Positions 1,729 through 54,037 of a stretch of 64,000 nt of DNA are shown in pieces. Under the pieces are notes generated by a model that saw nothing but the letters and a program-made list of their open reading frames with translations, ran no database searches and was not told the origin of the DNA. The translations under genes were made by a program, and so were the position numbers. Numbering within the stretch: position 1 is the stretch's first letter; each line of letters starts with the position of its first letter. Location of the stretch: positions 288,014-352,013 of the forward strand of contig JAKPPT010000068.1 in the NCBI GenBank assembly GCA_029547205.1. Direction: 5' to 3'. Origin of the DNA: Spirochaetota bacterium. GTDB lineage: Bacteria; Spirochaetota; Spirochaetia; Treponematales; UBA12059.

Positions 1729-1801
1729 AGCCCTCGAGCGGAATCGAACCGCTGACCACATCCTTACCATGGATGTGCTCTGCCAACTGAGCTACAAGGG
1801 C
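1729..1801 (-). tRNA. tRNA-Thr (anticodon GGT)
   Basis: Reverse complement GCCCTTGTAGCTCAGTTGGCAGAGCACATCCATGGTAAGGATGTGGTCAGCGGTTCGATTCCGCTCGAGGGCT; anticodon loop ATGGTAA. Confidence 0.93.
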
Positions 1802-1860
1802 ATTTTGTGGTGCTACAATAGCAATGTAGGGTAATTTTGTCAATATACACTCGTAGCTGA

Positions 1861-3126
1861 ATGAATTCCTCTATTGCATATACAGCGCTGAGTAATTATA
1901 GTGACACTATGAAATCTAAACAAGTTATCGAATTGCCATTCCTCCACGACAATCATAGTCATGCTTCTCTGTATGCGGTACTTGCCAGTATACCTGATAT
2001 ATCACACCTCACACGCAAGCAGAGCATGGATTTTATCATGAGTCTCCCAGCTGACGAACTCACCGTAATTCGTGGGTGGCGTACAGCAGAACTATCATTT
2101 ACCAATCAGGAACGCTCGATTCTTCCACCTGTTTTGCTTATTAATTACAGCCTTCATGGCTTTTTTCTTTCAGACAAAGCCATACCAATTATAGAAGCGC
2201 AGCTTCCAGATGTTGCAGAACATGCCGATGACGCACGGTGGCAGGAAATTCATGTTCCTGAAATTTTCGCCACATATTGCGCTTTTGGCACTGCTAGCGC
2301 TAATGATTTCAAAACTCTTTTAGCCACACTGGAAGAACAAGGCATAGGTTCTACCGTTGATATGGCTATTTGCACACCAGGCCTTGCCGATATTGTTGCA
2401 TTTTCCGGACTTTCTGACAGAATCGAATTCTGGGCAAGTCCAGATGTTTATAAAGCAATGCAACTACAAACAAAAAACCTTTGCATGGGGATTAAACTGT
2501 TTCTTGATGGTTCCATTGGTGCAATGAGCGCAGCTATTTCTGACACCTGGCCTAATGGCACAAACGGTATACTTACCTATACCGATAATGAACTCGAAGC
2601 ACTGCTCTGGGAACTGAGCACATTCAACACCGGAATCGCAGTACATGCAATTGGAGAACGCGCGATCGAACAATTTTTGACCTGTGTAAAAAAAATGATC
2701 CTACAGGGACACTCTTTCCCATACATTCAGATGGAACATGTGCAATTCATTACAGAAGAACAAATGGAACAATGCCGTGATTTAGGAATAACGCTTTCTA
2801 TGCAGCCCAATTTCAATGAGGATTCGGTTATTTATGCTGATCGATTATCAGAATACCATCGAAGGCATAACAATCCATTCCGCACACTCATTGACACATT
2901 TGGATTCAAACCCGGGAAAGATCTACTGTTTGGTTCAGACGGCATACCACACAGCATCGCATTTGCGTTACAGTGCAGCCTTTTTCCTCCATACCCCGAA
3001 CAAGAACTCTCGCTGGAAGAATTTGTTGCCGGTTACGGAAAAGCGAAATTTGCGCACACCACTCTCTGTAAATATGAAATTGACAGAAACGCTAACCGTG
3101 TGACCATGCTACCTATACACCACTAA
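1861..3126 (+). CDS. Amidohydrolase family protein (YtcJ-like)
   Basis: DNHSHASLYAVL, FLDGSIGAMSAAISDTW, AVHAIGERAIEQF and MEHVQ motifs of metal-dependent amidohydrolases. Confidence 0.75.
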   Translation: MNSSIAYTALSNYSDTMKSKQVIELPFLHDNHSHASLYAVLASIPDISHLTRKQSMDFIMSLPADELTVIRGWRTAELSFTNQERSILPPVLLINYSLHGFFLSDKAIPIIEAQLPDVAEHADDARWQEIHVPEIFATYCAFGTASANDFKTLLATLEEQGIGSTVDMAICTPGLADIVAFSGLSDRIEFWASPDVYKAMQLQTKNLCMGIKLFLDGSIGAMSAAISDTWPNGTNGILTYTDNELEALLWELSTFNTGIAVHAIGERAIEQFLTCVKKMILQGHSFPYIQMEHVQFITEEQMEQCRDLGITLSMQPNFNEDSVIYADRLSEYHRRHNNPFRTLIDTFGFKPGKDLLFGSDGIPHSIAFALQCSLFPPYPEQELSLEEFVAGYGKAKFAHTTLCKYEIDRNANRVTMLPIHH

Positions 3127-3199
3127 AATCCAGTAAAATCACTCTGCACTTTTTACATACTTATTAAAGATCCATCACGTTGTATCATTAGTAATTACG

Positions 3200-7781: not shown

Positions 7782-9148
7782 TATCTTGTACTTTTCTACT
7801 ATACATATTGACTGTATCAGTTTTACTAAATGCTCAAACACAATCACAAGTCATTGCGGGCGTCTATAACGATACTCAGGTATCGCAACCTCAATCTGCA
7901 CCACAAAATGCACCCATGACTGTTGAGCCGCTTCGCTCATTCAAAGAAGAAGTAGGAACTGAAGTATCTCACCCTATAGTTTACCAGTCACTTTTTTCAA
8001 AGGATTTTCCTGTTGATGATCCGCTCTACCAAAGCTATCTTACTGCATATTCCAGCAAAGGCGGCATGGAATGGATTAACGCAATTTATAAGCGTGCGCT
8101 CCCATACGCGCAGTATATTCGTGAACGCATTTTCTACTATCAGCTCCCCGAAGAGTTATTTTTCCTTCCCTTTATTGAATCAGAATTCAATCCCATGGCT
8201 GTATCACGTTCTGGAGCGATGGGTTTATGGCAATTTATGAAGAACAGCATTGGAGGCTACAATATCCACATAAATGAGTGGGTTGATGAACGGAGGGATT
8301 TTATTAAAGCTACTGATGCTGCCTTAAAAAAACTACAGTGGAACTATTCCTACTTTGGTGACTGGCTTCTTGCACTGGGTGCCTACAATTGCGGTACAGG
8401 CGCTATGGATCGAGCTATAAAAAAAGCAGGCACAAAAGATTTCTGGGAATTAAAAAAACTAGGTGTATTACCCAAAGAAACCGCTCATTATATTCCTAAA
8501 CTGCTGGCGCTCATCACTGTTGCGACAAATTCCCGCCGGTTTGAGTTTGATCCCCCATGGAATCCCCTACAGCAATGGGTAAGCATACCGCTCCCATTTT
8601 CTATTGATATTACCATGCTTGCAGAAGCTTGCGGTATCAATGTTACCGTATTAAGACAGGGAAACCCTGAGTTAAAGTACAATGTGACACCCCCAGACAG
8701 CCACTATTCCTTAAAAGTTCCCGTAGAGTATGCAGAACAAGTAAAAAAAACCCTTGAACAGGCTCAGGGAAAGCTTATCAAGGTATACATGCATAAAGTG
8801 AACACGGGGGACACTCTATCAGCTATAGCACGGCACTATGAAGTTAGCATTAACATGATTGTACGACTAAATCCAGGCTTAAAACCGGACAGAATCCAGA
8901 TTGGTCAAGTTCTGGTAATACCAGCACTCAAAGACAAAAAACCTTTTGTTAATGAAAAACAAGCAGAATCGCCTGCTGATTTTTCCGGCACCTATGTTGT
9001 TAAGAAAGGGGACACTCTTTGGCAAATAGCCTTAGCCTTCAACGTGTCTCCAGAAACACTTGCAGAGAAAAATGGGCTTACCTTGAACTCAATTTTACGT
9101 GAAGGAATGGTCCTCAAAGTACCGATACTTAATACTGTACAGCCATGA
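7733..9148 (+). CDS. Membrane-bound lytic transglycosylase (MltD-like) with two LysM domains
   Basis: FFLPFIESEFNPMAVSRSGAMGLWQFM (SLT catalytic motif); LysM motifs NTGDTLSAIARHYEVS and KKGDTLWQIALAFNVS. Confidence 0.9.
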   Translation: MGMGRHFFWRQNTNKLVSCTFLLYILTVSVLLNAQTQSQVIAGVYNDTQVSQPQSAPQNAPMTVEPLRSFKEEVGTEVSHPIVYQSLFSKDFPVDDPLYQSYLTAYSSKGGMEWINAIYKRALPYAQYIRERIFYYQLPEELFFLPFIESEFNPMAVSRSGAMGLWQFMKNSIGGYNIHINEWVDERRDFIKATDAALKKLQWNYSYFGDWLLALGAYNCGTGAMDRAIKKAGTKDFWELKKLGVLPKETAHYIPKLLALITVATNSRRFEFDPPWNPLQQWVSIPLPFSIDITMLAEACGINVTVLRQGNPELKYNVTPPDSHYSLKVPVEYAEQVKKTLEQAQGKLIKVYMHKVNTGDTLSAIARHYEVSINMIVRLNPGLKPDRIQIGQVLVIPALKDKKPFVNEKQAESPADFSGTYVVKKGDTLWQIALAFNVSPETLAEKNGLTLNSILREGMVLKVPILNTVQP

Positions 9149-16649: not shown

Positions 16650-16980
16650 TGGAAGTATAATATACTTGAAAAGTATACTTTAATTCAATGGTATGTAGCG
16701 ATTCAAGGAGATACACTATTTACAGACCGACATACGATACTGCCTGCTAAGGTAGGTTGATAACCTGCTCATTCCGATATAGTCAAAAACCCTTAGCCTC
16801 GTTATTCACACATGTGGTCAGCCCGTTCCTCTGCACAAGGGGATTAATCGATATATCTCTCGTCTCGTACCATCCTTTAGCCCTACCTTATTACACACAT
16901 CACATGACATTGAAGAGTGTCCCTATAATTTCTACCTAAATAATTCTTACAATTAACTTTCAAGTACTTTCAAGAGTGTC

Positions 16981-17004
16981 CCTTTAGTAACCCCTTTAGT
17001 AACC
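16981..17004. repeat. Two tandem copies of the 12-mer CCTTTAGTAACC
   Basis: Direct reading: cctttagtaacc cctttagtaacc, adjoining a GAGTGTCCC motif. Confidence 0.8.
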
Positions 17005-18886: not shown

Positions 18887-19450
18887 TATCCTCCGAAGCT
18901 AACAGGATATGCCGGAAGTTCATATGAATCACTTACCGAATCTCATACAGTGTAGCACGAGCAATCGCTTTTAACCATTACTTACAGAAATATTGACCAG
19001 TTCTCCAAAAAAAATCCTTCATGTTTAGGGACAAAGGAAGAGTGTCCCTCCTATATTCCCAATGTATTATACCAAAAGAAGAACCTTATTTTTCCTGCAA
19101 TAGCATTGAATCGTAAGATTTTATGGCACAGAACAACCTTAGTTAAAATCAAATCAGCTTGTTAATTTCGGTCATGCACAGTTCAGATGAAACTGCTTTA
19201 CCTCAATCCTTTCGAACTGATCATAGAACCGAACCAACATCTTGCATAATTGCTCAATCAGCTAGAATTGCATTTTAATTCTTTAGCACAATAAAAAGAT
19301 AAAGCCTAGAAAACTTAAGAATAAAATAACCACTTTAGGCACTATTACTACCTTAAGGACAGGCACTGCTGTGGGGCAATTTACGTAACTATTCTAGTAG
19401 TATAACTAGCGCTGAATCCTTATATAAATTCCTAATTATAACTGTAAATA

Positions 19451-20560
19451 TCAATGCATTTCACTATCGGTACCTAATAGAAACAGTGTTATATCATCCT
19501 CAAAAACCGGATTTTCCATAAACTGAATAAGTTCAGTTAATATTGTATCAGCTATGGTATCGAGGGACAGACTTGAATTTTCAAGCAAGACATGCTTTAT
19601 GCCCTCGATACCGAACATTTTTTCATGTGCACCACGAGATTCGATTATTCCATCGGTAAAAAAACAAAATATATCTCCAGGATGGAATTCTTCAAGAGTG
19701 TCCCTATAGTTAAAATCATCCATTAGCCCGATGATAGGATTGCCTAAAGTTTTCATTTCTGTAAATGAGCCATCAACGTGCGCTATAAGCTGCCCAGGAT
19801 GACCGGCATTGCAATATTCAATCGAATATTTTTTAAAATCAAGTATACCATAAAAAGCTGTGACATAATGATTTGTAGTTATTACCTTTGAAAATTCCTC
19901 ATTAAGACTTCGGATTACTTTTGAAGGATGTGTATATTTGGTTTTCAAATAATCAAAGGTACTCTTTATCATCGCTGTTATAAAGGCTGGAGCAATTCCA
20001 TGACCTGAGACATCGCTAATCATAATGCCAAATCGATACTCATCGATTTGAAAAATATCAAAATAATCGCCTCCTACCATTGCCATCGGTATATAACGAT
20101 GCGTACATGAAAAATAGGATGTACCGGGATATGAACGTGGCAACATGCTTTTTTGCATTTCTACTGCAAGATTCATCTCGCGAATTGATTGTTTATTACG
20201 ACGTTCTAACCCATACAATGCTTCTTGAAACTTTATACGCTCATTTTTAATTATTTTTTTTGCCCGCCTATATGCTTTTTTAAAAGATTTAAGCTTTTCC
20301 TCTATAGGGCTATATAAAACTAATCTATCAGCTTCTGGAAATAATTGTTTTAAAAGAGTTTGCTCATGAAGATCTTTTTCATGGAGTGTCCCTATAGTAG
20401 TCTCATTGAAAATTTCATGCAAGGTCTTGTTTTTAAATTTTTCATAACAACTATTTGGTAAAACTGCTATTATTTGCTGCTCTTTATTTAAAGCAAAAAT
20501 ATATCCATGCAAAGATTGTAGCAATTTTTCAAGAGTGTCCCTTTCGATAAGTTTATCCAT
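19451..20560 (-). CDS. PP2C/SpoIIE-family serine phosphatase (RsbU-like)
   Basis: AMVGGDYFDIFQID...ISDVSGHGIAPAFITAMIK...DIFCFFTDGIIES. Confidence 0.87.
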   Translation of the reverse strand: MDKLIERDTLEKLLQSLHGYIFALNKEQQIIAVLPNSCYEKFKNKTLHEIFNETTIGTLHEKDLHEQTLLKQLFPEADRLVLYSPIEEKLKSFKKAYRRAKKIIKNERIKFQEALYGLERRNKQSIREMNLAVEMQKSMLPRSYPGTSYFSCTHRYIPMAMVGGDYFDIFQIDEYRFGIMISDVSGHGIAPAFITAMIKSTFDYLKTKYTHPSKVIRSLNEEFSKVITTNHYVTAFYGILDFKKYSIEYCNAGHPGQLIAHVDGSFTEMKTLGNPIIGLMDDFNYRDTLEEFHPGDIFCFFTDGIIESRGAHEKMFGIEGIKHVLLENSSLSLDTIADTILTELIQFMENPVFEDDITLFLLGTDSEMH

Positions 20561-20655: not shown

Positions 20656-20670
20656 ATGAGTGTCCCTCAT
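20656..20670. repeat. GAGTGTCCC motif in a perfect hairpin ATGAG-TGTCC-CTCAT
   Basis: Direct reading of atgagtgtccctcat. Confidence 0.75.
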
Positions 20671-20954
20671 GTTGCCCCTCCCCCTCGTGTTGCCCCTCTT
20701 TTTGCAATTTATTGCTCTATGTTGCGCTAAATTGCATATAGTACTTTTCCTTTATTTTTAATACAAAAGGATTCTAAGTGATTTTGAGTGAAAACAAAAA
20801 CTCTATTTCAATTTTCTGATTTTTTAAAATAACAATATCAAAAATGTAATTTTTTATACAATTCAAATAAGCAGATTAGAAAAATGAATATGATATAAAA
20901 TACTCAAAAAGCAATGTGAACACTTCATATTTAGTGTGTTTTACTTGCAAAATA

Positions 20955-21479
20955 CTATGTTATATATTTTTTATATTTTTCTATATTACGCTTATAAAAA
21001 TCATGAACCCAATCACTTATCCAAATGTTCATTACATCAAAAAGATTTATATAAAATGATAATCCTGACCATTTCCAATCTAATGGATTTTCTACTAACT
21101 CTGCTGAAACAGCGTTTTCGCTTATATAATTAAAACATCTTTCAAAATCAATTTCTTCATTGAGGATTTCGGAAAAATATCTATCACCCCATATATGTCC
21201 AGTTCGGCCAAAATGTTTGTTATACCGGATCGTAAAAGTCATAAGAAGTCGTTTCATAATGGTTGGCAATTCCATATCCAATGTTTTGATAATTAGATGA
21301 AAATGATTATCCATTATTGAAAAGTGTTCAATTTTAAAACCCATTTCTGCTTGTAGATCCATTAATATCCCCAGAAAAAGGTTTTTGCAGAAAGAACAGC
21401 TAAGACGAAACTCCTGATTGTTTATTCTAGCGGTAACATGATATGTTCCTCCTGGAATAAGTTTTCTAGGACTTCTCAT
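20955..21479 (-). CDS. Y1 (HUH) transposase, IS200-like / REP-associated tyrosine transposase (RAYT)-like
   Basis: PRKLIPGGTYHVTARINNQEF...IEHFSIMDNHFHLIIKT (HUH) ...TGHIWGDRYFSEIL; 174 aa, no IS ends seen. Confidence 0.88.
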   Translation of the reverse strand: MRSPRKLIPGGTYHVTARINNQEFRLSCSFCKNLFLGILMDLQAEMGFKIEHFSIMDNHFHLIIKTLDMELPTIMKRLLMTFTIRYNKHFGRTGHIWGDRYFSEILNEEIDFERCFNYISENAVSAELVENPLDWKWSGLSFYINLFDVMNIWISDWVHDFYKRNIEKYKKYIT

Positions 21480-21649: not shown

Positions 21650-21658
21650 GGGACACTC
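21650..21658 (-). repeat. Dispersed motif copy (GGGACACTC on +)
   Basis: catggggacactcctt, upstream of the Y1 transposase gene. Confidence 0.75.
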
Positions 21659-21792: not shown

Positions 21793-21802
21793 GGGACACT
21801 CT
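21793..21802 (-). repeat. Dispersed motif copy (GGGACACTCT on +)
   Basis: agtggggacactcttctt. Confidence 0.75.
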
Positions 21803-21913: not shown

Positions 21914-21930
21914 CAAGAGGGACACTCTTG
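21914..21930. repeat. Motif in a perfect hairpin CAAGAG-GGACA-CTCTTG
   Basis: Direct reading of caagagggacactcttg. Confidence 0.75.
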
Positions 21931-21996: not shown

Positions 21997-24900
21997 ATGT
22001 TTGAATCCGTAGATCCAAAAATAAATTTCCCAAAAATGGAAGAGGAAATCCTTAAATTTTGGGAAGAGCATAAAATTTTTCAACGTTCCATAAACGAGCG
22101 CGAAGGTTCTCCCGAATTTGTATTCTATGATGGACCACCCTTTGCTACGGGGCTGCCTCATTTTGGCCACTTTGTACCAGGCACGATAAAAGATAGCATC
22201 CCTCGTTATAAAACAATGAAAGGATTTAAAGTAGAACGCCGTTTTGGTTGGGATTGTCATGGTCTTCCGGTAGAGTATGAAATGGAAAAAGAACTCGGTA
22301 TCTCTGGGAAAAAACAAATTGAAGACTATGGCATTGCAAAATTTAACGAAGCTTGCCGTTCAATAGTATTGCGATATACGAAAGAGTGGCGTACAATTAT
22401 GACCCGAGCCGGGCGCTGGGTTGATTTTGATCATGATTATAAAACCATGGATCCAGATTACATGGAATCTATCTGGTGGGTCTTGAAGCAATTATGGGAT
22501 AAAAACCTGATTTATGAAGGCCACTACATACTTCCATATTGCCCCCGCTGCTCAACAGTACTCTCAAATCATGAACTTCAACTTGGTGGTTACAAAGATG
22601 TTCATGATCCTGCTATAACCGTCAGATTTAAGATTACTGCAGTTTCGCATGATAGTAAATCATCAAATACAAATACTTCGGGGACACTCTTGCTTGATAG
22701 TTCACTTGCTGATGGATCAACATACTTACTGGCATGGACTACAACACCATGGACGCTTCCATCAAACCTTGCACTTGCAGTAGGTCCCGAGATTGATTAT
22801 GTGCTTGTACAGGATGGGACTGAACGGTATATCCTGGCTGAATCACGTCTAACTGCTTACTACAAAGACGATGCTCTGCCTACGATTCTATCGAAGTTTA
22901 AAGGAAGTTCTCTTGAAGGTATTCAATATGAACCACTCTTCCCTTATTTTGCTGAATATACAAAAAATGGCGCATTCAAGGTACGAATAGCTGACTTCGT
23001 TACCACTGAAGATGGTACCGGTATAGTCCACATAGCTCCCGGCTTTGGCGAAGATGATTACAATGTACTTAAAGGTTCTGGTATTCCTATAGTGTGTCCC
23101 GTAGATGCTGAATGCCAATTTACAGCTGAAGTTCCTGATTACCAGGGAACATTTGTCAAAGACACTGACAAGTTAATAATAGAACGCCTTAAAAATGAAA
23201 AAAAATTAGTTAAGCGAGAACAATATTTGCATGCTTATCCACACTGCTGGCGCTGTTCCAGTCCTCTCATTTATCGTGCTGTATCCAGCTGGTTTGTGAA
23301 AATTGATCCTATTAAAGAAAAAATGCTAAAAGCAAATCAGAAAATCTATTGGATGCCAGCACATATTAAAAACGGACGTTTCGGTAAATGGTTAGAAAAT
23401 GCTCGTGATTGGGCGATAAGTCGCAATCGATACTGGGGCAACCCGCTCCCAATCTGGAAATGTGATGCCTGTGGTAAAACCGAATGCTTAGGCTCACGAG
23501 AAGAACTTACAAAAAAAACAGGCAAGAGTGTCCCCGATCTCCATAAGCACTTTGTCGATGAATATACCTGGGAATGTTCCTGTGGAGGGACAATGAAACG
23601 GATTCCAGAGGTACTCGATTGCTGGTTTGAATCAGGTTCAATGCCATATGCTCAGGTTCATTACCCATTTGAAAACAAAAAACATTTTGAAGAACATTTC
23701 CCAGCAGATTTCATTGCCGAAGGTCTCGACCAGACCCGTGGATGGTTTTATACATTAACAATAATCGCTGCAGCTCTATTTGATAAACCTGCTTTTAAAG
23801 CCTGCGTAGTCAATGGTCTTGTTTTAGCAAGCGATGGTAAAAAAATGAGCAAAAGCCTCAGAAATTATACTGATCCCATGAAAGTAATGCAGGAATTTGG
23901 TGCGGATGCACTGCGTCTTTTCCTCATGAACTCTGCAGTAACTCGTGCCGATGACCTTTGCTACTCTGATGACGGCGTTCGTGAGGTATTAAAAAATCTC
24001 ATTCTCCCACTGTGGAGTGCTTATAGCTTTTTTGTGACCTATATTAATCTCGATAGAGTGTCCCCGCCTCAAGCAAAACCGGAAGCTACTAATCCACTCG
24101 ACCGCTGGATACTTTCATTATGTGAAACAATGGTTAGTAATGTCACTGAAGCTTTAGAAGCATACGATATGCAAAAAGCAATAACTCCAATTATCAATTT
24201 TATTGATGCACTCAATAATTGGTTCATTCGTAGATCTCGCCGACGATTCTGGAGAAGCGAAAATGATTCGGATAAACTCGATGCATACGCAGCACTCTAC
24301 AGAGTGTTACTAAGGCTTATACACTGTCTTGCACCATTTGCTCCTTTTGTAACAGAAAAAATCTGGCAAAATATCCGCCCTGAAAATTCTGCAAAAAGCA
24401 TACATCTCTCTTCATGGCCTCAGGTTGAAGCATCTTTTATCGATGCAGAACTTGAAGCTAAAATGGCTTATGTGCGACAAGCAGTGGCTATGGGTAGATC
24501 GCTCCGCTACCAGCACAACATCAAGATTCGACAGCCGCTCAAAGAAGTTCAACTGGTAACAAAAAACGCTCAAGAAAAAGCCAGCCTCATAGAAATGATG
24601 GAAATCATTAAGGAAGAACTTAATGTTAAGGAGGCTATATTTAGAGAAGATGAAGAACAACTGGTTGAGTACAGTGCAAAAGCTAATTTTAGAGTTCTTG
24701 GGAAAGAATTAGGTAAAGATATGAATACTGCAGCAGCAATAATCGAAAAATTGGGCAGCAAAGAAATTATGAGCTTATTAGAAGGGAATACTCTTGTCAT
24801 TGATGTTGCAGGGAAGAGTGTCCCTCTTACCACAGAAAAGGTTATTATTAACCGCATTGAAAAAGCCAATCTCAAAGTTATTAATGAAGGAAGTCTTACT

Positions 24901-25185
24901 GTTGCGCTCAACACAGATATTTCAGAAGAGCTTTTTGATGAAGGCAATGTGAGAGATTTAATTCGAGGCATCCAAAATCTTCGTAAAGAATCAGGTTTGG
25001 CAGTAAGCGATCGTATAAAACTAAATGTATATGGTTCAGAAATATTAAAGCGAAGTTTTGAAAAATTTAAAGATCTTATTGCGTCAGAGACTCTAGCCAT
25101 AACAGTAAACTGGGCGAAAGAATCCGCTATGACTTCGGTAGAGGCAGGTGATGAATCTTGGGAAATATCTCTATGTAAAGCTTAA
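21997..25185 (+). CDS. ileS: Isoleucyl-tRNA synthetase (IleS2/eukaryote-like type)
   Basis: YDGPPFATGLPHFGHFVPGTIKD (HIGH-type), DGKKMSKSLRNY (KMSKS), AWTTTPWTLPSN editing domain. Confidence 0.95.
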   Translation: MFESVDPKINFPKMEEEILKFWEEHKIFQRSINEREGSPEFVFYDGPPFATGLPHFGHFVPGTIKDSIPRYKTMKGFKVERRFGWDCHGLPVEYEMEKELGISGKKQIEDYGIAKFNEACRSIVLRYTKEWRTIMTRAGRWVDFDHDYKTMDPDYMESIWWVLKQLWDKNLIYEGHYILPYCPRCSTVLSNHELQLGGYKDVHDPAITVRFKITAVSHDSKSSNTNTSGTLLLDSSLADGSTYLLAWTTTPWTLPSNLALAVGPEIDYVLVQDGTERYILAESRLTAYYKDDALPTILSKFKGSSLEGIQYEPLFPYFAEYTKNGAFKVRIADFVTTEDGTGIVHIAPGFGEDDYNVLKGSGIPIVCPVDAECQFTAEVPDYQGTFVKDTDKLIIERLKNEKKLVKREQYLHAYPHCWRCSSPLIYRAVSSWFVKIDPIKEKMLKANQKIYWMPAHIKNGRFGKWLENARDWAISRNRYWGNPLPIWKCDACGKTECLGSREELTKKTGKSVPDLHKHFVDEYTWECSCGGTMKRIPEVLDCWFESGSMPYAQVHYPFENKKHFEEHFPADFIAEGLDQTRGWFYTLTIIAAALFDKPAFKACVVNGLVLASDGKKMSKSLRNYTDPMKVMQEFGADALRLFLMNSAVTRADDLCYSDDGVREVLKNLILPLWSAYSFFVTYINLDRVSPPQAKPEATNPLDRWILSLCETMVSNVTEALEAYDMQKAITPIINFIDALNNWFIRRSRRRFWRSENDSDKLDAYAALYRVLLRLIHCLAPFAPFVTEKIWQNIRPENSAKSIHLSSWPQVEASFIDAELEAKMAYVRQAVAMGRSLRYQHNIKIRQPLKEVQLVTKNAQEKASLIEMMEIIKEELNVKEAIFREDEEQLVEYSAKANFRVLGKELGKDMNTAAAIIEKLGSKEIMSLLEGNTLVIDVAGKSVPLTTEKVIINRIEKANLKVINEGSLTVALNTDISEELFDEGNVRDLIRGIQNLRKESGLAVSDRIKLNVYGSEILKRSFEKFKDLIASETLAITVNWAKESAMTSVEAGDESWEISLCKA
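24814..24828. repeat. Motif in a hairpin AAGAG-TGTCC-CTCTT inside ileS
   Basis: gggaagagtgtccctcttacc. Confidence 0.7.
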
Positions 25186-25243
25186 GTACTGATTTCCAAT
25201 AGGGACACTCTAGGTTTTTCTGGGTTTTTTAATCTTTTACACA

Positions 25244-25278
25244 GCTGGCATTTTTCAATGCAAAATGCCAGCTTTTTT
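25244..25278 (+). terminator. Rho-independent terminator after ileS
   Basis: GCTGGCATTTT...AAAATGCCAGC stem followed by TTTTTT. Confidence 0.9.
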
Positions 25279-25314
25279 ATCGTTCAGCTGCTATTACTTC
25301 TTTTTTTCACTACA

Positions 25315-26292
25315 CTATGTTTTTTCAGCATACCAATCGTGCATATAAGGAAATGGAAGTACACTCCGAATATCAGCTAGACCATTCATGGCCATAATAA
25401 AACGCTCAAAACCCATTGCAACCCCAGAACAGAGGGGAAAATCATCAAAAAGCTCAGCATATTCAAAATTTACTGCATGTGGTACTTGCTGATTTTGTTT
25501 TTTTTCAGCTTCTTTTTTCATGCTCGCAAGTACAGCTTCTTTTGTAGCAGCTTCTGTATAGCAGTTTAGTAACTCGATTCCATTGATATACAATTCCCAT
25601 CGATCCTTCCATGGTGTTCCAGGTATATTACGAGCCAAACATTCTATTTGTGCTGGATATTCAATAAGCACTAGAGGACGATCCTTGGGCAATTCAGGCT
25701 CTATCCACTGAACAAATGCTTGATTAAATAGATCCTCCCACGATGCTTCTTTATTTACAATGAGTCCTTTCCCTAATAATGCCTCTCGTAGAGTGTCCCT
25801 GTCCTGTAACTTGATTAAATCTAACTGTGCGAATTCCAACCATGCTTCCTGCATTGTCATAATTCTAAATGGAGGTTTTGCGTAGTGAGGAGTGTCCCCC
25901 GTGCTGCATGTATCAAATAATGCCTCAGTAATTTCAATAGAATCTCTGGCTGTCGCATTTACTGTGTAATATTCAAGCATGGTAAACTCTGGGCTATGAA
26001 TTGTCCCTATTGATTCTGCATTTCGAAATGCTTTGCACAGCTCAAAAACATTACGCTTTTCTTCTGCAATAAATTTTTTTATCCATACCTCTGGAGAAGG
26101 TAAAAGCCAGAGCTTTCGATTGCCATAAAATGGATTTACATATTCTGTTTCAAAAACTTCAAGACACGATTCGGGCAAAGGTGCTGGAGACAAAAGCGGA
26201 GTATCTAATTCCACATAGTTCCGCTCAAGAAAAAATTGTCTAACCTTTGTTACAAGCCTGGAACGTTCTAAGAGCACTGTCGTACTAATCAC
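25315..26292 (-). CDS. epmA: EF-P lysine ligase-like / LysRS-related protein (EpmA/GenX/PoxA family)
   Basis: 325 aa class II synthetase core without an anticodon-binding domain; SPEFTMLEYYTVNA, PLCSGVAMGFERFIMAMNG. Confidence 0.82.
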   Translation of the reverse strand: MISTTVLLERSRLVTKVRQFFLERNYVELDTPLLSPAPLPESCLEVFETEYVNPFYGNRKLWLLPSPEVWIKKFIAEEKRNVFELCKAFRNAESIGTIHSPEFTMLEYYTVNATARDSIEITEALFDTCSTGDTPHYAKPPFRIMTMQEAWLEFAQLDLIKLQDRDTLREALLGKGLIVNKEASWEDLFNQAFVQWIEPELPKDRPLVLIEYPAQIECLARNIPGTPWKDRWELYINGIELLNCYTEAATKEAVLASMKKEAEKKQNQQVPHAVNFEYAELFDDFPLCSGVAMGFERFIMAMNGLADIRSVLPFPYMHDWYAEKT

Positions 26293-27302
26293 GTTGTCAT
26301 CCTTTCACTTTCACAGAGAAAGCGCATATATTCTTTAAAATCATTAAGCGGTATCCACCGAAACCCGAGTGCAGTCCCTTTAAAATAGTTTTTAAGTTCC
26401 AGAATAGACATTCCAGCAAGCAATTCTAGTGGCAAATAGCTTCCTGGACGTTTTTCTGATTCTTTTAGCTGAGATTCGAGATATGTAAAAACCTTACTAG
26501 AGTGTCCCCGATGTTCCCGATGTTTCCCTTGTTCCCCTTCCCATTGTCCGCTATCTCCCAACTGTCCCTTTTGATGCTCCAATCTCTCATTATCCTGGAA
26601 TTGCTGAGTATAGGGACACTCTTTGATGCAAACATCACAGCCATAGAGATGATTCCCTCGATGCAATTTGAAATGTTCTGGCATGCCACCTGTACTCATC
26701 CAGTACTGCAGACATAAGTGTTTAGAAAAACCATTGTCAAGCGCATGAGTCGGACAAGCATCAATACATGCTGAACATGATCCACATTGTGAATTGTTTA
26801 TATAATTTTTTGAATCTGTTTCGTTTACGAGTGTCTGAAACAAAGCATCTATTTTCGGGAAAAGCATTAATCCTATCAGTACAGCAGAACCGTAGAGCGG
26901 ATTTACCAGCAAACCCGATTTTCCAATCCAGCCAAGATTTGCGAGTACGGCACTTTCTTTTTCCGGTAATTTTGAATTTACCGATATTCGAATATCACTA
27001 CGGTGTAAACCATATTCTGCACGTATTTTCGCTGCCAATTCTTGCAATATCCTGGTTAAGAAATGGTAATAATTATATGCAGCAAATGATCCAACTGTTA
27101 CTATTTTTGTATGCGTAGAGCTTTCAGTTCCTGAGATAAGCCTATAAGGCAAGAGCACAGCTATACCTGTCACCTCTTTCTGTACATGCTCAGCTATTGG
27201 TATTTCTTTTGTACTGGTAAAGATATGATCTATTGCTCTATCAGACAGGATATTCCATACGTGTATCCCTTTGCAGTCAAAAAACTCCGTGAATGATATC
27301 AT
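26289..27302 (-). CDS. queG: Epoxyqueuosine reductase-like 4Fe-4S protein (QueG family)
   Basis: LANLGWIGKSGLLVNPLYGSAVLIG, CGSCSACIDACPTHAL, GCDVCIKECPYTQ. Confidence 0.8.
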   Translation of the reverse strand: MISFTEFFDCKGIHVWNILSDRAIDHIFTSTKEIPIAEHVQKEVTGIAVLLPYRLISGTESSTHTKIVTVGSFAAYNYYHFLTRILQELAAKIRAEYGLHRSDIRISVNSKLPEKESAVLANLGWIGKSGLLVNPLYGSAVLIGLMLFPKIDALFQTLVNETDSKNYINNSQCGSCSACIDACPTHALDNGFSKHLCLQYWMSTGGMPEHFKLHRGNHLYGCDVCIKECPYTQQFQDNERLEHQKGQLGDSGQWEGEQGKHREHRGHSSKVFTYLESQLKESEKRPGSYLPLELLAGMSILELKNYFKGTALGFRWIPLNDFKEYMRFLCESERMTT

Positions 27303-30056: not shown

Positions 30057-31700
30057 TCAGTAAATTCCTGTCACTTCAATATCGCTCCAGAAGCTCGTAT
30101 AGGATTGAATTTCATGACTATACTCTTCATTAATATCGATGAAAGACCATTCTTTTTCAGAACGCGATGTCTTACCATCAGGAAGCAATCGAGATACTTT
30201 ATAACTATCGAGCGAAAAAGCAATATGGCGATCATCCAACGACCCAAAATATTTGTCTGTACTCGAAAATGGATTAGTCAGTTCAAATGTCAGAGCATTC
30301 ATGTATAAAGCTGGGTCAACCGGCACCCATCCTACTCCATATATAAAAAATTCACACCAATAGTGCTCATGTGCTTTTTTATTGTCATCAATTATAATTC
30401 CCGCAACAGGTCGTGCAGGTATCCCTAAGCTTCGCAATGCTGCCGTATACAGCAAGGCGAGGGCTCGTACACTGCCACTCTTTGCGCGAAGTGCCGCAAC
30501 AGGAGTGTCCCCTTTTTTGGACTGCACTGTATATGTTTTTCTGAGTGCATTTAAAACAAGCAATGCACGACGATATGGATTTTTTTCATTCTGAACACTG
30601 TTTCTTGCAAAGTCTTGAATACTTGCATCATCAGCAGGAACAAGATCGCTACTTGCAGTATACTTAGTATACAGTGATGGCAACCCAGTTTTAGGAATTT
30701 GTATTTCATCTGGGTTTACTTCTACTGTATAACTGATACTTTGAACGAGATATCTTTGAACAATGGTATACTCAACAACTGTTTCTGGATTCTGAATTAA
30801 AAAACATGTTACCTGATTATCAGCATAGAGTGGCTGAGTGCTTGATTCCAATAATTTAATATTTCGCTGAGTATCTGTAGAAACAGGCATTTTGCGCCAA
30901 ATATACAGCAATCCACCAGGTTTTGCCTTTATTTTTGAAATACTGGTAAAGGATTCTAAGGCATATGTGCGTTTTGTAATAAATCGTTTTTTAGCAATAT
31001 TTTGTAATTGTAAAAATTGTGGTTTGCTCTGTCCCTGTAATGTTTTTACCCAAATAGGTCCTGAAACTGCACCATCAGGAATACGCATCTGTATTTCTTT
31101 ATCTGACCAGGAGGTATAGTCTTCATCACTATCTGCGACAATAGATTCACTGAGTCCTGTTCCATCAATTGCACTTGCTACAGTCTGGGCAGTAAAAATT
31201 ACCTCTGACGTCCCCCGATTGATGCCGAAGTTATATCCTTTAATAATCAGTAAGCCCCCTGTAACTGCATCCTTTACATCAATACTCACAATAACAGGTC
31301 CAACAGCCTGTTCGGAATTCTCATTGGGAAACCCCGGAAGTTTATCTTTACATGCTATTATTTTACCGTTTGAATAGTACCCTGAACTCGTGCGAACCTT
31401 GATTATTGGCGTTTTATCAAGCAAGGGTACCGTTAAACGGATACTATTGTCTTTCCATTCTAGATATGCAGTTCTCTGTACTGGAATACCATTGAACTCG
31501 ACTCGAGCATCACCAGAAAGCTGACCAAAATTGCTGCCATAAATTGTTATTGTATCCCCTGTGCCTGCGCTGATCGGAAGTATTGTTTCTATTACAGGCT
31601 TTCGAATAAAAAAGGAACGAACGCCAATACCAATGAATATCAAGACGAGAATACTAATGCCGATTAAGAATAGGTTTCGCTTTACCGATGCTTGTTGCAT
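30057..31700 (-). CDS. IPT/TIG-domain protein with transglutaminase-like domain
   Basis: ILPISAGTGDTITIYGSNFG TIG motifs; SGSVRALALLYTAALRSLGIPARPVAG...HEHYWCEFFIYGVGWVPVDP. Confidence 0.82.
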   Translation of the reverse strand: MQQASVKRNLFLIGISILVLIFIGIGVRSFFIRKPVIETILPISAGTGDTITIYGSNFGQLSGDARVEFNGIPVQRTAYLEWKDNSIRLTVPLLDKTPIIKVRTSSGYYSNGKIIACKDKLPGFPNENSEQAVGPVIVSIDVKDAVTGGLLIIKGYNFGINRGTSEVIFTAQTVASAIDGTGLSESIVADSDEDYTSWSDKEIQMRIPDGAVSGPIWVKTLQGQSKPQFLQLQNIAKKRFITKRTYALESFTSISKIKAKPGGLLYIWRKMPVSTDTQRNIKLLESSTQPLYADNQVTCFLIQNPETVVEYTIVQRYLVQSISYTVEVNPDEIQIPKTGLPSLYTKYTASSDLVPADDASIQDFARNSVQNEKNPYRRALLVLNALRKTYTVQSKKGDTPVAALRAKSGSVRALALLYTAALRSLGIPARPVAGIIIDDNKKAHEHYWCEFFIYGVGWVPVDPALYMNALTFELTNPFSSTDKYFGSLDDRHIAFSLDSYKVSRLLPDGKTSRSEKEWSFIDINEEYSHEIQSYTSFWSDIEVTGIY

Positions 31701-34885: not shown

Positions 34886-34904
34886 AGAAGAGGGACACTC
34901 TTCT
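34886..34904. repeat. Intergenic motif in a 7-bp-stem hairpin AGAAGAG-GGACA-CTCTTCT
   Basis: Direct reading of agaagagggacactcttct. Confidence 0.75.
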
Positions 34905-36492: not shown

Positions 36493-36656
36493 AAAACCTC
36501 CTTATCTATTCTTTATTCAATATAATGCAATTGACACATAAGAACAAAGAAATACCAGTACATACCTGGAGGTACGATATATTTGTTCTACAGAAAATCA
36601 CTGTATCTAACTTGCAGCACTTTACTTGCTATATGTTTCTGCAGTAATATCCCTGC

Positions 36657-43837: not shown

Positions 43838-44770
43838 ATGCAAATCTCAACTCAACTTCTTGAAACGATATATAATCGGGCTCGAACAGAGACGAAAGCT
43901 GGCAGTGTAGCCACCTACATACCAGAACTTGCTAAGGCCAATCCCGATGATTTTGGTCTTGCAGTATTCGATGCAACGGGGACACTCTATACTTGCGGAT
44001 TTTCATCAAAATTTTTTACAATTCAAAGCATTTCAAAAGCCTTTGCACTGCTCTATACACTGGAAACCTTTGGGCACGAAGCTGTTTTTTCACGTGTTGG
44101 CAAAGAACCAACAGGTGATCCTTTTAATTCTATAATACGACTCGAAACTAGTTCGCAACGAAAACCATTCAATCCATTCATTAATGCTGGAGCAATTGTT
44201 ATTTCGAGCATGTTACCTGGTACATCTCCACATGAAAAAATAGAAAATTTGTGTGACTTTTTAGCACACATGATCGATACCAATACAGGTACTTTACAAT
44301 ACAATACTGATGTGTTCCTTTCAGAAAAGGCTACCGGTGCTAGAAATAGAGCAATAGCGTGGTTTCTTAAAGAGCTCAAACTCATTGATGGTGATGTTGA
44401 AGAAGTACTTGATACCTATTTTATGCAGTGTTCAATTATGCTTTCTGCTGAAGCACTGGCAAAAATTGGTCTCATACTTGCATTTGATGGCATTGATCCG
44501 GTAAGCAGGCAACGATTCTTTTCAGAAAACTCTGCACACATATGTAAAAGCCTCATGATAACCTGTGGTTTATATGATGGCTCTGGAGAGTTTGCTGTAG
44601 AAACCGGTATCCCTGCAAAAAGCGGCGTTGGCGGAGGCATTATCGCTGCCGTGCGGGATAGAATGGGCATTGGTGTTTATGGTCCTGCATTAGATTCTCG
44701 AGGAAACTCAGCAGCTGGACTTACAGCCTTAAAGCTCCTTTCGGAAGCGCTTGATTTACGCGTACTGTAG
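43838..44770 (+). CDS. glsA: Glutaminase
   Basis: TIQSISKAFALLYTLE; RKPFNPFINAGAIVISSML; PAKSGVGGGIIAAVRDRMGIGVYGPALDSRGNSAAG. Confidence 0.95.
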   Translation: MQISTQLLETIYNRARTETKAGSVATYIPELAKANPDDFGLAVFDATGTLYTCGFSSKFFTIQSISKAFALLYTLETFGHEAVFSRVGKEPTGDPFNSIIRLETSSQRKPFNPFINAGAIVISSMLPGTSPHEKIENLCDFLAHMIDTNTGTLQYNTDVFLSEKATGARNRAIAWFLKELKLIDGDVEEVLDTYFMQCSIMLSAEALAKIGLILAFDGIDPVSRQRFFSENSAHICKSLMITCGLYDGSGEFAVETGIPAKSGVGGGIIAAVRDRMGIGVYGPALDSRGNSAAGLTALKLLSEALDLRVL

Positions 44771-44787: not shown

Positions 44788-46986
44788 CTATAGTTTCTTT
44801 AGTAATATTGCTGTAACATCATCAGCCATTTTTGCACCACTCGTAAAGAACCGCCACTCCTGAATGATGTAATCGAGCATTCCCTGCGCACTCCCTTGAG
44901 GAGCAGATGACAGGGCCGATAGTATTCCTTCCTGACCAAACTCCTGACGGTCCACGTTTCTTGCTTCAGAAATTCCATCGGTATATACAAGAATTACATC
45001 GCCTGGCTGAACCTTAAAACGGATTGATTTATAAAGTGATTCTATACCCTTCCGACCCATTGGTAACCCGCGATATTCGTCATTTCCTGGTGGTCTGAGT
45101 TCCAGTGCATATGGTTTTTTAGAACTCTTATACACTATTTCGGTATGAGCAGCATTAGAATACTCTATGCTGCCATCGTCAGATAATCGGAGCAGTGCAG
45201 CTGTGAGGTAATGTTCCACACTCTGCAGCTCATCACAGAGTTCTTTATTAACAATCGACATTACTTTTCCTAATGGCAAGTTCCTGTATTTGAGAAAGTT
45301 TCTATAAAAAATTGAACGAGCAAGAACTGTGATCAAGCCCGAGGCTATTCCATGTCCGGAAACATCTGCTACAACAATGCCAGCTAATGCATTACTAATT
45401 GTATAAAAATCATAAAAGTCTCCCGATACACCGCTTGCTGGAATAAAAACAAAGGCAGCTTCCCATGCTGATGTTCGAGGAGCTTCCGACGGGAAAAATC
45501 CTATTTGCACTTGCGTTGCAATACGTAAATCCATTTGAGCTTCTTGATGGGCTCTTTCAAGCTTTTGTGCTGTTTCTGTTAAATTCTTATTAAAAACATC
45601 CTGTTCTTTTAATTTTTGACTTAATTCTTCTGTTCGCTTGTTCACCTTTTTCTCAAGAACCATATTGGTCAATTCGACGTGTCGATAAACAAAGAAAAAT
45701 TGAGCAGCAAGCAATGTAGCTGAACCAAAAACCAAAATCAAAAAACCAATTTGAGCCATCATCTCAAATTGATTTCCTCCAAATGCAATGATGTTCAAAA
45801 AGCTCGTTGCAATAACAACAGCCATACCCTGTAAAAATCTCACCATATCAACACGTTGAAAACTTCTCACTAGCAGAAACAGCACACTTTGTTTTTTTTC
45901 TGTTGTAATGCGTTTATAATGTCGGAGTGCATGGCGATATGGAACATACAAATCACGGTACAATACATAAATAGCAGGAATAAACCCAACTATACTCCAT
46001 ATAAAATTGATTAATTCAGTGAATACAAATAATTGAACTACAAAGAAAATTCCAGCAATACCTGCTAAAACTAATGCAAACTTTGAAAGTCTTTTATGAA
46101 TAGCAACATCAATAAACGCTACAAACATGGGTAACAATATATAGAGTGTCCCCGTTCGTATTGCATCAGTTATACGTGTATCTAAAATGACATCATGGAT
46201 TACATATGTTCTTGAAAGGAGATGAATACCTAAAATAAACGATGCAAGTGCAAAATACAGATAGGCTCTGTTTTGACGGCGGAGAAAATAAAAAATTAAA
46301 TGATAAATTCCAAAAAAGAGATACACACCTATAAAGGCAAGCTGTATATATTGTGTACGTTTGCGGAGTAACGACAAGTAATCACCAATAACGTATCCCT
46401 TTCGCGCTGTAAGTCCTGTTTTTTCACTGAGCGGATCGCCTTCAATCATAAATGCAAGCAGATTTGTTCCTGATTTAATCAATCGCCGATCAATATTGAT
46501 AAGAGCACCTCGTACATTACGTTCTACCCCCCGAGGTAGAGCATCATAACCACGTGATGATTCGTTATGAATTAGTGTTCCATTAAAATAAACTTGCCAA
46601 TTAACCCCAATTTGTTCAAGAAAGAGTGTTACACCACCTTTTTCTGTATAGTCTTCTTCATAAATCGTAAAAGGAATAACAATAGTAAAACGCTGAGACT
46701 TCATTTTTGCATTAGAGAATAGTGGTGGCTTTTTAATTCCAGGCAAACCAACATCACGAATGATCACAGATCGTGAACCCTTGTTCCCCAGCACAGAAAT
46801 CCATGAACTGTCATTAAGTTTAGGTGGGAATAATATCCAGGAAGGTTCAAAACCTGGTCTTATAAACAAAGCGTATTCAGTTAAATCGATTTCTTGTGCA
46901 CAGACTGAAACGACACTGCTTACAATAAAGAAAAGTAATAAAAACAAATGTATTTTTTTACTATTAAGAATCTTCACTGCGTGCAC
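44788..46986 (-). CDS. 7TM-DISM-like receptor with C-terminal SpoIIE phosphatase
   Basis: Extracellular sensor region, multiple TMs, ASGVSGDFYDFYTI...VVADVSGHGIASGLITVLA...VILVYTDGISEA. Confidence 0.85.
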   Translation of the reverse strand: MHAVKILNSKKIHLFLLLFFIVSSVVSVCAQEIDLTEYALFIRPGFEPSWILFPPKLNDSSWISVLGNKGSRSVIIRDVGLPGIKKPPLFSNAKMKSQRFTIVIPFTIYEEDYTEKGGVTLFLEQIGVNWQVYFNGTLIHNESSRGYDALPRGVERNVRGALINIDRRLIKSGTNLLAFMIEGDPLSEKTGLTARKGYVIGDYLSLLRKRTQYIQLAFIGVYLFFGIYHLIFYFLRRQNRAYLYFALASFILGIHLLSRTYVIHDVILDTRITDAIRTGTLYILLPMFVAFIDVAIHKRLSKFALVLAGIAGIFFVVQLFVFTELINFIWSIVGFIPAIYVLYRDLYVPYRHALRHYKRITTEKKQSVLFLLVRSFQRVDMVRFLQGMAVVIATSFLNIIAFGGNQFEMMAQIGFLILVFGSATLLAAQFFFVYRHVELTNMVLEKKVNKRTEELSQKLKEQDVFNKNLTETAQKLERAHQEAQMDLRIATQVQIGFFPSEAPRTSAWEAAFVFIPASGVSGDFYDFYTISNALAGIVVADVSGHGIASGLITVLARSIFYRNFLKYRNLPLGKVMSIVNKELCDELQSVEHYLTAALLRLSDDGSIEYSNAAHTEIVYKSSKKPYALELRPPGNDEYRGLPMGRKGIESLYKSIRFKVQPGDVILVYTDGISEARNVDRQEFGQEGILSALSSAPQGSAQGMLDYIIQEWRFFTSGAKMADDVTAILLKKL

Positions 46987-47795: not shown

Positions 47796-50700
47796 TTACT
47801 TCCCGCAACCCTCACAGCCAACATTGCAATCTGCACAGGTCAGCGGTATTCCATCATGTTGATTATCATCAGAATTATCATCGATGAGGCTTTCAACATT
47901 GCCACCTCGATAGCGAAGCACATTAACCATAAAGATATTGAGTTTGTTCACAATGCTTGGTGGCAATTGATTTCCATCAACTTCTACTGATATCACAGGA
48001 TAATTCCTGTCTCGAGCCCACGGTGTAAAAAGTCCTTCAATTACACGTCCAATTAAACATGCAAATGGAGAAATGTTTACAATTCCAGAGTAGCCTTCTT
48101 CCATTGCTGTTGCTGCAACACCCGTTGATACAGCAATTTCCGAATTGAGTTCATGGTTGACAAAGTTCTTTGCCGTATTTGCCATAATGTGGTGCATATT
48201 CTCCGGTGCATGCGGTATAAGCCCTGTTTCTCCTAAAATCTTCTTAACATCCTTTTCTACCTGATGTTTCCACCATTCTTCAAGTTTAAGCCTTATATAC
48301 TTGCGCATTGGAACACTAAATAACCGCTTCCACCATGAAGTCAATTTTATCTCTTTTTTAAGTGCGTATTCTCGAACAAAATCGAGATAATGAATCCATT
48401 CACCGATACCTGACACCTTGACGACAATTCCTTTTGCGCTCATTAAATCAGTGAGCTCTCCAATTGCAAAATCATCGCGTCGAACATAGATTTCTCCAAC
48501 AACGAGCACACGGGGACACTCTTCCAATGTACGTTTAAGCGGTATCTTTTTTACTTCCTGTGCTATTCGTTTTAATTCAGATTTGAGCACTTTTGGATCT
48601 TTCTCTATTTTTGCCATCATTTCATACCAGGACTTGTTATATGCCTCGAGTGCTTCTTCCGGTTTTTCTGCAGTGGCTTTGAGCACTGTTTGAATATCTT
48701 TCATGTAGTCGGATACCACGAGACCACGCCACATATCTTTAGCAAAGTTTGGTCCAAGTTCGGTGTATGAGTTATCAGCTGATAGCGTAAATACAACGAC
48801 ATTTTCCAATTTGAGATCCCGGAAGAGATTTTCGTAATACACAAAATACTGACCGGTACGGCAAGGACCAGTAGTTATAGGGACAAAGAGCAGGTAAAGC
48901 TCATCTTTCCTGTACTGTGGAGATGAAAAAAACTGCAATGCACTACCTAACACGAGGTGACTTGGAACACATTCTTTACCGGATGCATGAGCACGGGCAA
49001 CCTGAATCGTTTTATTGGTTGCTACTGGTAATGCTACCGCATTTAAACCGATACCTCGCAAAGTTGCTGCCATAAATTCTGTGGAAACATTTCCCATATT
49101 TGACAGGAGGATTTTTACCCTTGGATTGTTCTTTACCGGAACGCTTTCACCGGTAATCCTGTTAATAACTCTAAGGCCTTCCGGTCCTGTCTGCATAAAC
49201 TTCCAGCCATTGTCATACCGTTCCATGCCAAGATCATTCTTTTTGGAACGATAACCATCGATAATGTCCAGGAAGGCCTCAACACGGGTATCAATACCGG
49301 CATCTGCTGAGTGTGAATCGAGTTCCAGCACGAGGAATGGCTTCTGTCCCATTATCCACTTTAAGTAATGGAGCATAAAGGAGTCCGGCGCACAGGAAAA
49401 GTTTGTAATAAATGTTACATAAATATTATCATAATCTTTTAGAAACTCTGCCGCTTTCATGTCCTGCTGACCATAGAACCAGTACATATTCGGGAAAATT
49501 TCTTCTGATTCAAATGGCAAAATATCAAACGGTATGACAGAGTAACCGCGCGTAGTAAATTTTCTTGGAATACCCATGTTTGCTTCTGGTGTAAATGCAT
49601 TATACGGGCGGCCTAGAATTGCAATGACAGGGCGCTCTGCTTTTTTTGCTTCTTCAATTGCTTCAATACCGAGCTTGCGGGCAGCAGAAAAGTATTCCCG
49701 CTGTTTTTGCAATGCTTTAGTAAAAGCACGCTCAATTTCATCAGATGGTATATTGAGTTTCTCTCCGCATTTCAGGAAATGCTCTAACGCTTTTTTATCA
49801 CCGTACTTAAAGCTGACAATCACCGGCAAAAATTTTTCATCAGGAATATCAGGGAATGCTTTTTGTATATAGTATGGGAAACTTTGTGTAATCGGGCAGA
49901 AATTTGCATGTACATCATCTTCGTAGCTCTGCATGTCTCTAAAATGAGGTACAAAAATATAATCTGCGCCTTTATCGATACAGTCCTGTACTGCACCATG
50001 GGCAATTTCTGCTGGGAAACAGTAGGTACTTTCTGCTCGAGCAACCCCCTCGTGGACAACATCGGAAGAAAGGAACGTCTTAATGCCAAGTTCATGGAAG
50101 AACCATGCATAGAGTGGATACAGAGTATGCACCGAAAACGCTCTTGGAATCCCTACAATATAATCACGCTTTTGTCTAAAGGTTGATGGCTGGGGTGCAT
50201 ATTCATTAAAGAGTAACTGCTGACGCTTTTCCACATAATCGAGAACTGGCACATCTTTAATTGCTTTGCGCATGTTCGTATACTTGGAGCAGCGGCCGCC
50301 AAACATATACGAGTGACCATTAACTTTCAAGATTTGAATAGGACAGTAATTATCACAGGATTTACAGGTAAATACTCGCTCATATTCGATTTCTCGGTTA
50401 ATAATTTCTTCGAGATCGAATTGTCCAGCTTTGAGAAGCCCTTCCTGATGCTTTCGTTTAGCGAGCAATGCCACACCAAAACAACCCATAAGTTCAGGAG
50501 ATGGCGGCACAAGAATATCTTTTTCAAGCATCATCGCGAAAGCAAGGGGAACAGCAATATTCTTTGCCACACCTCCCTGCAGGAACACTTTGCCTCCGAT
50601 AGTCCTATTTCCCACAACACGGTTAAGATAGTTTGCGACAATCGAAACAACAATACCAGCTGTTATATTTTCCTTACTTGCCCCCTGCTGCACAGCTTTG

Positions 50701-53224: not shown

Positions 53225-54037
53225 ATGAACAAGAAGTGGCTTAAGTCTTTGTTAATCTACTTAGTACTAGCAGTAACGCTACCGCAGCTGTCTGCTCAGC
53301 AGCCATGGAGAATATATTCCCTTTTTTCATACGATGCTTATGAAAGTGAAGGTATACTGACCATTGACGAAAGCATCTCAATACCCCTCATAAACAATTT
53401 TGTTATATCGACTGGTGTTGCATGGAAAGGTACACTTATTGACCCTTTTTTCACCGATCCAGCAAAAGCTGAGGCACGACTCGGAATTATCTATATTCAG
53501 CCTTCATGGAGCATGTATTTTGAGCTCTATGGAGGTTCAATATGGGTGCCTCAAACCATGGGAACACCACTGTGGGAAGCTTTTGTACAGACAACACTTA
53601 TTGAAGCTGCAGTCAATTGGGAAACAGATTTGCTCTATTTTGGATTACGTGAGCGTATACTCTTTAATACTATTTCTACAACTTCAATTACCAATTTTCT
53701 ATTCTTCTGGACACCCCAACGATTTTTCAAACTGAGCCTTGGAATGAGTATTGGCATCGAAAATGATGTTCCAACACTTCCTGGCATTCGTGCTGAGTTC
53801 ATAGCACCAATTATTAAGAGTGTCCCTGAACTATTCCGTGCTGGACTTGGTATTACCTATGAACGCTTTTTCGATGACGCAACACTGACAGCGGGAAACA
53901 CAATTACAATTAAAGCAATTCTTGCATCTGCACCACTTGCAGCTCTCGATATAAAAGCTGGTATAGCATGGAATTTTGGTGATAAAGCAGTATATCCGCT
54001 CCAGCTTGAAATGCTATCAGCAATAGTGCTCCAGTAA
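53225..54037 (+). CDS. Hypothetical secreted, possibly beta-barrel protein
   Basis: Signal peptide (…LPQLSAQQP) and alternating amphipathic strands. Confidence 0.5.
   Translation: MNKKWLKSLLIYLVLAVTLPQLSAQQPWRIYSLFSYDAYESEGILTIDESISIPLINNFVISTGVAWKGTLIDPFFTDPAKAEARLGIIYIQPSWSMYFELYGGSIWVPQTMGTPLWEAFVQTTLIEAAVNWETDLLYFGLRERILFNTISTTSITNFLFFWTPQRFFKLSLGMSIGIENDVPTLPGIRAEFIAPIIKSVPELFRAGLGITYERFFDDATLTAGNTITIKAILASAPLAALDIKAGIAWNFGDKAVYPLQLEMLSAIVLQ

Follow-up and report, generated by a model that had tools for sequence, protein, structure and literature searches.

A low-complexity insertion in a spirochaete queG gene lies within a halo of short words around a solitary Y1 nuclease gene

HUH/Y1 proteins use a catalytic tyrosine to cut and rejoin single-stranded DNA, and a preference for action in cis is frequent among bacterial transposases. 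The RAYT and TIRYT genes, known as 'domesticated transposases', are widespread; what they do, and to what benefit, is poorly understood. DNA uptake sequences (DUS/USS) are short words spread genome-wide, with one word per species. Short-patch double illegitimate recombination (SPDIR) acts on single-stranded DNA and uses arbitrary donor sequence.

TIRYTs are TIR-associated tyrosine transposases; in the parts of the original description drawn on here (Di Nocera 2013, PMC3733652), the consensus GGGGWSAS is common to some, not all, of their inverted repeats. RAYT (or TnpA-REP) proteins, which are associated with REP and REPIN repeats (PMC6006769, PMC3116915), fall into classes, each of which is given its own repeat family in PMC6006769. 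In the parts of that paper drawn on here, repeats were sought within 1000 nt of the genes, and intragenic REPs are given as in-frame insertions. Neither local halos of words nor same-length recoding of neighbouring genes is described in the portions of PMC3733652 and PMC6006769 covered here. Searches of open-access papers on TIRYT genes and on local word clusters turned up no description of halos. A search of the literature for the 9-mer of this study, GAGTGTCCC, returned unrelated papers only.

The Y1 gene and its word

The window (the whole 64-kb stretch of a Spirochaetota contig analysed here) contains a 174-aa Y1_Tnp / HUH tyrosine transposase-like gene on the minus strand at 20955..21479 (PF01797, E 2.9e-12). 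Its product scores 47.2 bits against PF01797, over the cut-off of 23, and 79.1 bits against the NCBIfam model NF047646 (REP_Tyr_transpos; cut-off 80). By profile it matches TnpArep 4er8 with an E-value of 9.6e-11, the best sequence match among solved structures. The HUH motif NHFH occupies residues 58-61; N58, H59, H61 and Y118 are invariant in the family alignment. The catalytic tyrosine motif of the window copy, which contains Y118, is YISENA (window 21106-21128), with A for P relative to the Y---NP motif of class 2 TnpA-REP/RAYT proteins; four paralogues keep NP after the tyrosine, and one relative in the family (L133) has NA like the window copy. Judged by these sequence features, the gene belongs to the Y1_Tnp superfamily.

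The word GAGTGTCCC occurs 28 times in the window, where dinucleotide-preserving shuffles give an expectation of 0.13; it forms the core of the window's most over-represented words. The same word reversed without complementing has 0 copies in the window. Across the genome there are 58 copies (5 of the reversed word), 26 forward and 32 reverse, with no overall strand bias. The 352-kb contig that holds the window makes up 13% of the genome and carries 36 of the 58. Six copies lie within 1 kb of the window Y1 gene, and the distance bins 1-2.5, 2.5-5 and 5-10 kb contain four, seven and three respectively. In all, 17 of the 58 genomic copies are found within 5 kb of this gene and 20 within 10 kb.

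A signal used throughout the genome, as Chi, KOPS and DNA uptake sequences are, is refuted by this distribution. The word is short, non-palindromic and found in coding DNA, as such a signal would be; against this stand the concentration on one contig, the use of four different words at four Y1 genes of the genome and the lack of strand bias, which together leave this explanation a negligible chance. The resemblance to uptake sequences extends to the way a short non-palindromic word arises inside genes by substitution, often synonymous. The difference is that the word here is local and varies between nuclease genes of one genome.

An inverted pair of words brackets the Y1 gene. The left arm is the plus-strand copy at 20658..20666, downstream of the gene, where it starts a C-rich string; the right arm is the minus-strand copy at 21650..21658, upstream (TTTAAGGAGTGTCCCCATG). 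Bracketing of a Y1/HUH gene by inverted copies of a short sequence is shared with TIRYTs. The consensus GGGGWSAS, as given in the parts of PMC3733652 drawn on here, fits GGGGACAC (the reverse of GTGTCCCC) in the copy at 21650; the corresponding sequence in the copy at 20658 is AGGGACAC. In those parts of PMC3733652, published TIRs flank the gene or form whole-element families. In the window system, in contrast, bare words of 9-13 nt are spread through neighbouring genes for 10-40 kb, and most of them replace sequence of equal length.

The locus shares with RAYT/TnpA-REP systems a repeat family belonging to each nuclease gene, the PF01797 domain and TnpArep 4er8 as the best sequence match among solved structures. 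It differs from them in that GTAG-tagged palindromes are lacking and the words lie mainly in coding DNA, concentrated around the gene. GAGTGTCCC is not self-complementary and has no GT[AG]G tag; with no GT[AG]G palindrome, it is not a REP. Little shared sequence adjoins the words.

Most window copies are single and sit within genes, rather than in C-rich arrays. To the left of the Y1 gene, plus-strand copies are found between genes at 16915 and 16974 (16915..16982), at 19040..19048, and in a SpoIIE-domain gene (19451-20560, by domain search) at 19696..19704, 20384..20392 and 20533..20541. To its right, minus-strand copies lie at 21793..21801, at 21919..21927 and between ileS and the next gene (25202..25210). 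That next gene, 25315-26292, encodes 325 aa, is putatively class II LysRS-like by sequence, and carries plus-strand copies at 25791..25799 and 25890..25898. Beyond it, word counts place one plus-strand copy at 30503..30511 and one minus-strand copy at 34892..34900. The distant copies are those on the minus strand at 2706..2714, at 8808 and 9009 (8808..9017), at 43979..43987 and at 48513..48521, and those on the plus strand at 46144..46152 and 53818..53826. All six copies within 1 kb of the window Y1 gene are oriented toward it; in 13 halos pooled from this and other Y1 genes there is no consistent orientation toward or away from the gene overall.

Halos at other Y1 genes

Many Y1 genes of this bacterial family are surrounded by a specific word of 9-13 nt whose density falls with distance. 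The window's genome has five Y1_Tnp genes, and each of four stands in a halo formed by a word of its own (GAGTGTCCC, GTACCAGGTGTC, GGTGCCAGGTTTC and GGTCTGTCCC); the surroundings of the fifth (C132) contain no clear word. Where the top word was counted per 40 kb around a Y1 gene, there were 24 copies of GAGTGTCCC (0.14 expected), 54 of GTACCAGGT(GTC) (1.07 expected), 63 of GTGCCAGGT(TTC) (0.86 expected) and 15 of GTCTGTCCC (0.09 expected). Control stretches free of Y1 genes gave nothing comparable, a CRISPR-like array excepted. This array has a repeat around GTTAGAAATGATTGACCTGTAAAAAGGGATTACGAC, with about 22 copies at a spacing of 70-79 bp, and lies on C63 of G000 at about 247.7-249.3 kb (L091:60-1260 and L092:19690-20000).

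In related genomes of the family, clear CTCTGTCCC or GTCTGTCCC halos stand at 11 of the 20 Y1 loci sampled, with 8-23 copies per 17-19 kb; among further loci, some give a weaker signal of this type and some give no signal. Loci with no halo or a weak one include C132, L128, L132 and L141. Pooled over 13 halos, the first kilobase from the gene has a density of 13.5 copies per 10 kb; the figure is 6.2 between 5 and 10 kb, 2.8 between 10 and 20 kb and 1.0 between 40 and 70 kb. The fall is not smooth, with a dip at 1-2.5 kb.

Two broader generalisations were considered. Words are similar in close Y1 clades without a one-to-one match, and the rule of one word per clade holds only partly. A halo as a universal property of Y1 genes is not supported; distant Y1 genes of other phyla mostly lack one. 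A few candidates occur among them. One is GCCTGACACC on contig L201 (JAMOQF010000058.1) of an acidobacterium, where six copies of GCCTGACAC in 10.7 kb beside the Y1 gene (0.02 expected) form a possible halo. Two genomes of the same order as the window's, G042 and G056, have 28 and 21 Y1_Tnp matches respectively, far above other relatives; some of these reading frames are broken.

Three species of one genus (G014, G008 and G017) were compared at one orthologous locus. G014 and G008 have a Y1 gene there, with 23 and 19 copies of CTCTGTCCC respectively. G017 has no Y1 gene at this locus; it has 0 copies in 10.5 kb, and the flanks are joined in unbroken sequence. Halo and Y1 gene are thus present or absent together at this locus, with a single unbroken empty site. 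Elsewhere, G017 has 112 matches of GCTCTGTCCC, and there are motif-rich contigs on which no Y1 gene was found. Several of these are orthologues of regions in G014 that hold its other Y1 genes, and they stop near the expected position of the gene, so an assembly gap is the likely explanation of its absence. A second comparison, of G007 with G013 and G016, is less clean: G013 has a truncated Y1 remnant with six copies, and G016 is fragmented.

The best reading of the halos is that the Y1 protein would recognise its putative own word on exposed single strands and cleave and rejoin DNA there. Its action would be mainly close to its own gene, in keeping with a cis preference, and copies would therefore build up nearby. 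The halos give each Y1 gene a readable putative recognition word and show its local influence; through them, the way in which these nucleases spread repeats becomes directly testable.

Word copies in coding DNA

The ileS gene (21997..25185, plus strand) contains four word copies. Alignment with close homologues shows no length difference at three of them, which lie on the plus strand at 23526..23534 (TGKSVPDLHKH), 24056..24064 and 24816..24824 (AGKSVPLT). The fourth, at 22681..22689 on the minus strand, falls in a long loop of IleS that exceeds its counterpart in relatives. A similar result was obtained between G014 and G017, in which 12 of 13 word sites are ungapped replacements. The G017 counterpart differs from the word at a mean of 3.3 of 9 positions, against a background of 1.41 for random 9-mers in the same alignments (0 of 20,000 resamples). 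A word in coding DNA is usually a same-length replacement, and some replacements are fully synonymous. Examples of synonymous gains are TCC GTT CCG to TCT GTC CCC at L142:2298 and GCC CTC TCC to GCT CTG TCC at L142:4623. Essential genes are thus seen to be recoded to carry the word with the reading frame intact.

The idea that all copies are insertions is rejected by IleS and by the G014/G017 alignments. This bears on a rival reading in which the Y1 transposase mobilises miniature REP/REPIN-like or TIR elements that insert in the ordinary way, one of them being the piece in queG. RAYT and TIRYT genes are known to pair with their own repeat families in the parts of PMC6006769 and PMC3733652 drawn on here, and the inverted word pair around the Y1 gene would fit an element of this kind. 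Most coding copies are without added bases, however, and the ungapped alignments largely refute insertion there; little common sequence is found beside the words. In queG, the insertion does lie between inverted copies at 26500 and 26613, but the second of these falls on a conserved Fe-S motif whose length is unchanged. Miniature elements are therefore an improbable source of the halo.

Among all orthologue pairs in two genera there are 63 cases of presence versus absence of a word, and 35 of these show no gap within 20 bases. In the 35 ungapped cases the site without the word has one mismatch in 12, two in 11 and three to five in 12; the pairs are not independent, as one site may count against two genomes. 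Sites one mismatch from the word are not enriched in species with the Y1 gene (6 and 8) relative to the Y1-less species (10), and consequently there is no obvious pool of intermediates. At L142:12689, a species-specific copy differs by four base changes in seven, with conserved flanks.

Two processes may account for such replacements. In the first, short single-stranded DNA carrying the word would be released or exposed, annealed to nearby, partly matching sequence and copied in during replication; the word would then replace its target in place. This is the least certain step of the proposed mechanism. It has in common with SPDIR the clustered same-length substitutions that arise where short single-stranded DNA is copied in, and differs in that one fixed word is tied to a nuclease. 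A tentative proposal, which we hold at rather less than even odds, is that a single small HUH nuclease rewrites the surrounding chromosome in this way: templated patching with single-stranded DNA would impose its word, in place and with nothing inserted, on essential genes close by. If true, templated in-place rewriting would be a form of local genome editing undescribed in the literature searched.

The second process is drive or selection acting on point mutations, which would yield the same end state. Here the word would act as a recognition signal from which the Y1 locus profits, for instance through easier copying or transfer by recombination, much as uptake sequences promote the uptake of DNA. 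Ordinary mutation would turn near-matching sites into new words, which would spread through linkage to the Y1 gene. Gains in place that are often synonymous are expected under this process, and 23 of the 35 ungapped gains need just one or two changes. Both orientations occur, protein sequence is mostly preserved, and the decay with distance fits linkage. On the other hand, species with the Y1 gene have no excess of one-mismatch sites, four changes in 7 bp within conserved flanks are found at L142:12689, and arrays of word-bounded modules are left unexplained. The mismatch spectrum is compatible with both processes. Point-mutation drive or selection is the strongest rival to the nuclease-driven reading, although on balance we think it unlikely.

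Arrays and the queG insertion

Word arrays are found where DNA tolerates changes in length. At L142:12123-12171 there is a word array with degenerate copies, at which three species differ by indels. In the C82 halo, word-bounded modules such as TCGAATCGGGACTRCGAGAAC recur in differing orders. Such an arrangement is better explained by joining at the word than by simple slippage. Under the proposed mechanism, the Y1 protein would join word-bounded segments into arrays, of which the queG array may be an example.

Two halos of G000 were located in more detail. In L085 and L086 joined (C82 58501-98500), the dense C82 array, at joined coordinates 23900-25400, has its shuffled modules between GGTGCCAGGTT words and looks like the product of repeated joining there. 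In L083 and L084 joined (C45), the 54 GTACCAGGT(GTC) copies around another Y1 gene were noted at 1749-4119, 9374-9624 and 35161-37654; the copies of the C45 halo are partly clustered at 20-80 bp spacing, with many degenerate neighbours.

The queG-like gene of the window (26289..27302, minus strand) encodes 337 aa. Its product matches TIGR00276 at E 1.4e-27 with 96.6 bits, below the cut-off of 200, and both 4Fe-4S motifs are present. The sequence-only reading had reported a C-rich string in this gene that encodes an in-frame low-complexity insertion. The string is present on the plus strand at 26500..26568 exactly as quoted there, and it consists of one exact word followed by several degenerate ones (GAGTGTCCC...TGTTCCC...TGTCCC). 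Alignment with 29 relatives upholds the insertion, which covers residues 243-270 (HQKGQ...HSSK; 26493..26576 on the minus strand), follows the second 4Fe-4S motif and amounts to about 25-31 extra residues relative to the nearest relatives. In the window protein, 53 residues separate the second 4Fe-4S cluster and the RPG motif; the spacing is 22-28 in the five nearest relatives that allowed both landmarks to be located. The same gene carries an in-place copy of the word inside the second 4Fe-4S motif (K-E-C-P-Y), at 26613..26621 on the minus strand, with unchanged length; queG thus combines one array and one replacement.

A second C-rich string had been noted beside the Y1 gene and was located at 20658-20698. 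The suggestion that the two strings share an origin stands in part. Both open with the identical 9-mer GAGTGTCCC, which links the queG string to the Y1 gene, about 5 kb away from the insertion. Descent of the whole string is rejected: past the 9-mer, the two are no more alike than shuffled sequence would be (score 8 against a shuffle mean of 6.3; P=0.26). The two strings therefore appear to have a word in common, not demonstrably an array.

Replication slippage of a C-rich tract, unrelated to Y1, is a further explanation of the queG array; the 9-mer at its edge would be coincidental or would have served as the seed. Repeat detection gives a weak 9-bp tandem repeat of low purity at 26503-26536, with 3.8 copies, and the flank similarity to the Y1-side string past the 9-mer is not significant, both of which would suit slippage. 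It does not readily account for an exact word, expected 0.13 times per 64 kb, at the edge of an array 5 kb from the centre of a halo, nor for the comparable arrays of degenerate words in other halos (L142:12123-12171 and C82). Slippage alone is considered very improbable.

The queG insertion looks to be of the array type, with an exact word and degenerate words, the frame kept, and a position in a linker. We put the probability that it is part of a short-word halo produced around the solitary HUH/Y1 nuclease gene at roughly 0.55. One cause may then underlie both the low-complexity insertions and the odd codon choices met near such genes.

The essential gene ileS offers a further candidate of the array type: at window 22650-22720, a lengthened loop of IleS (SHDSKSSNTNTSGTLLLDSSL) contains one word.
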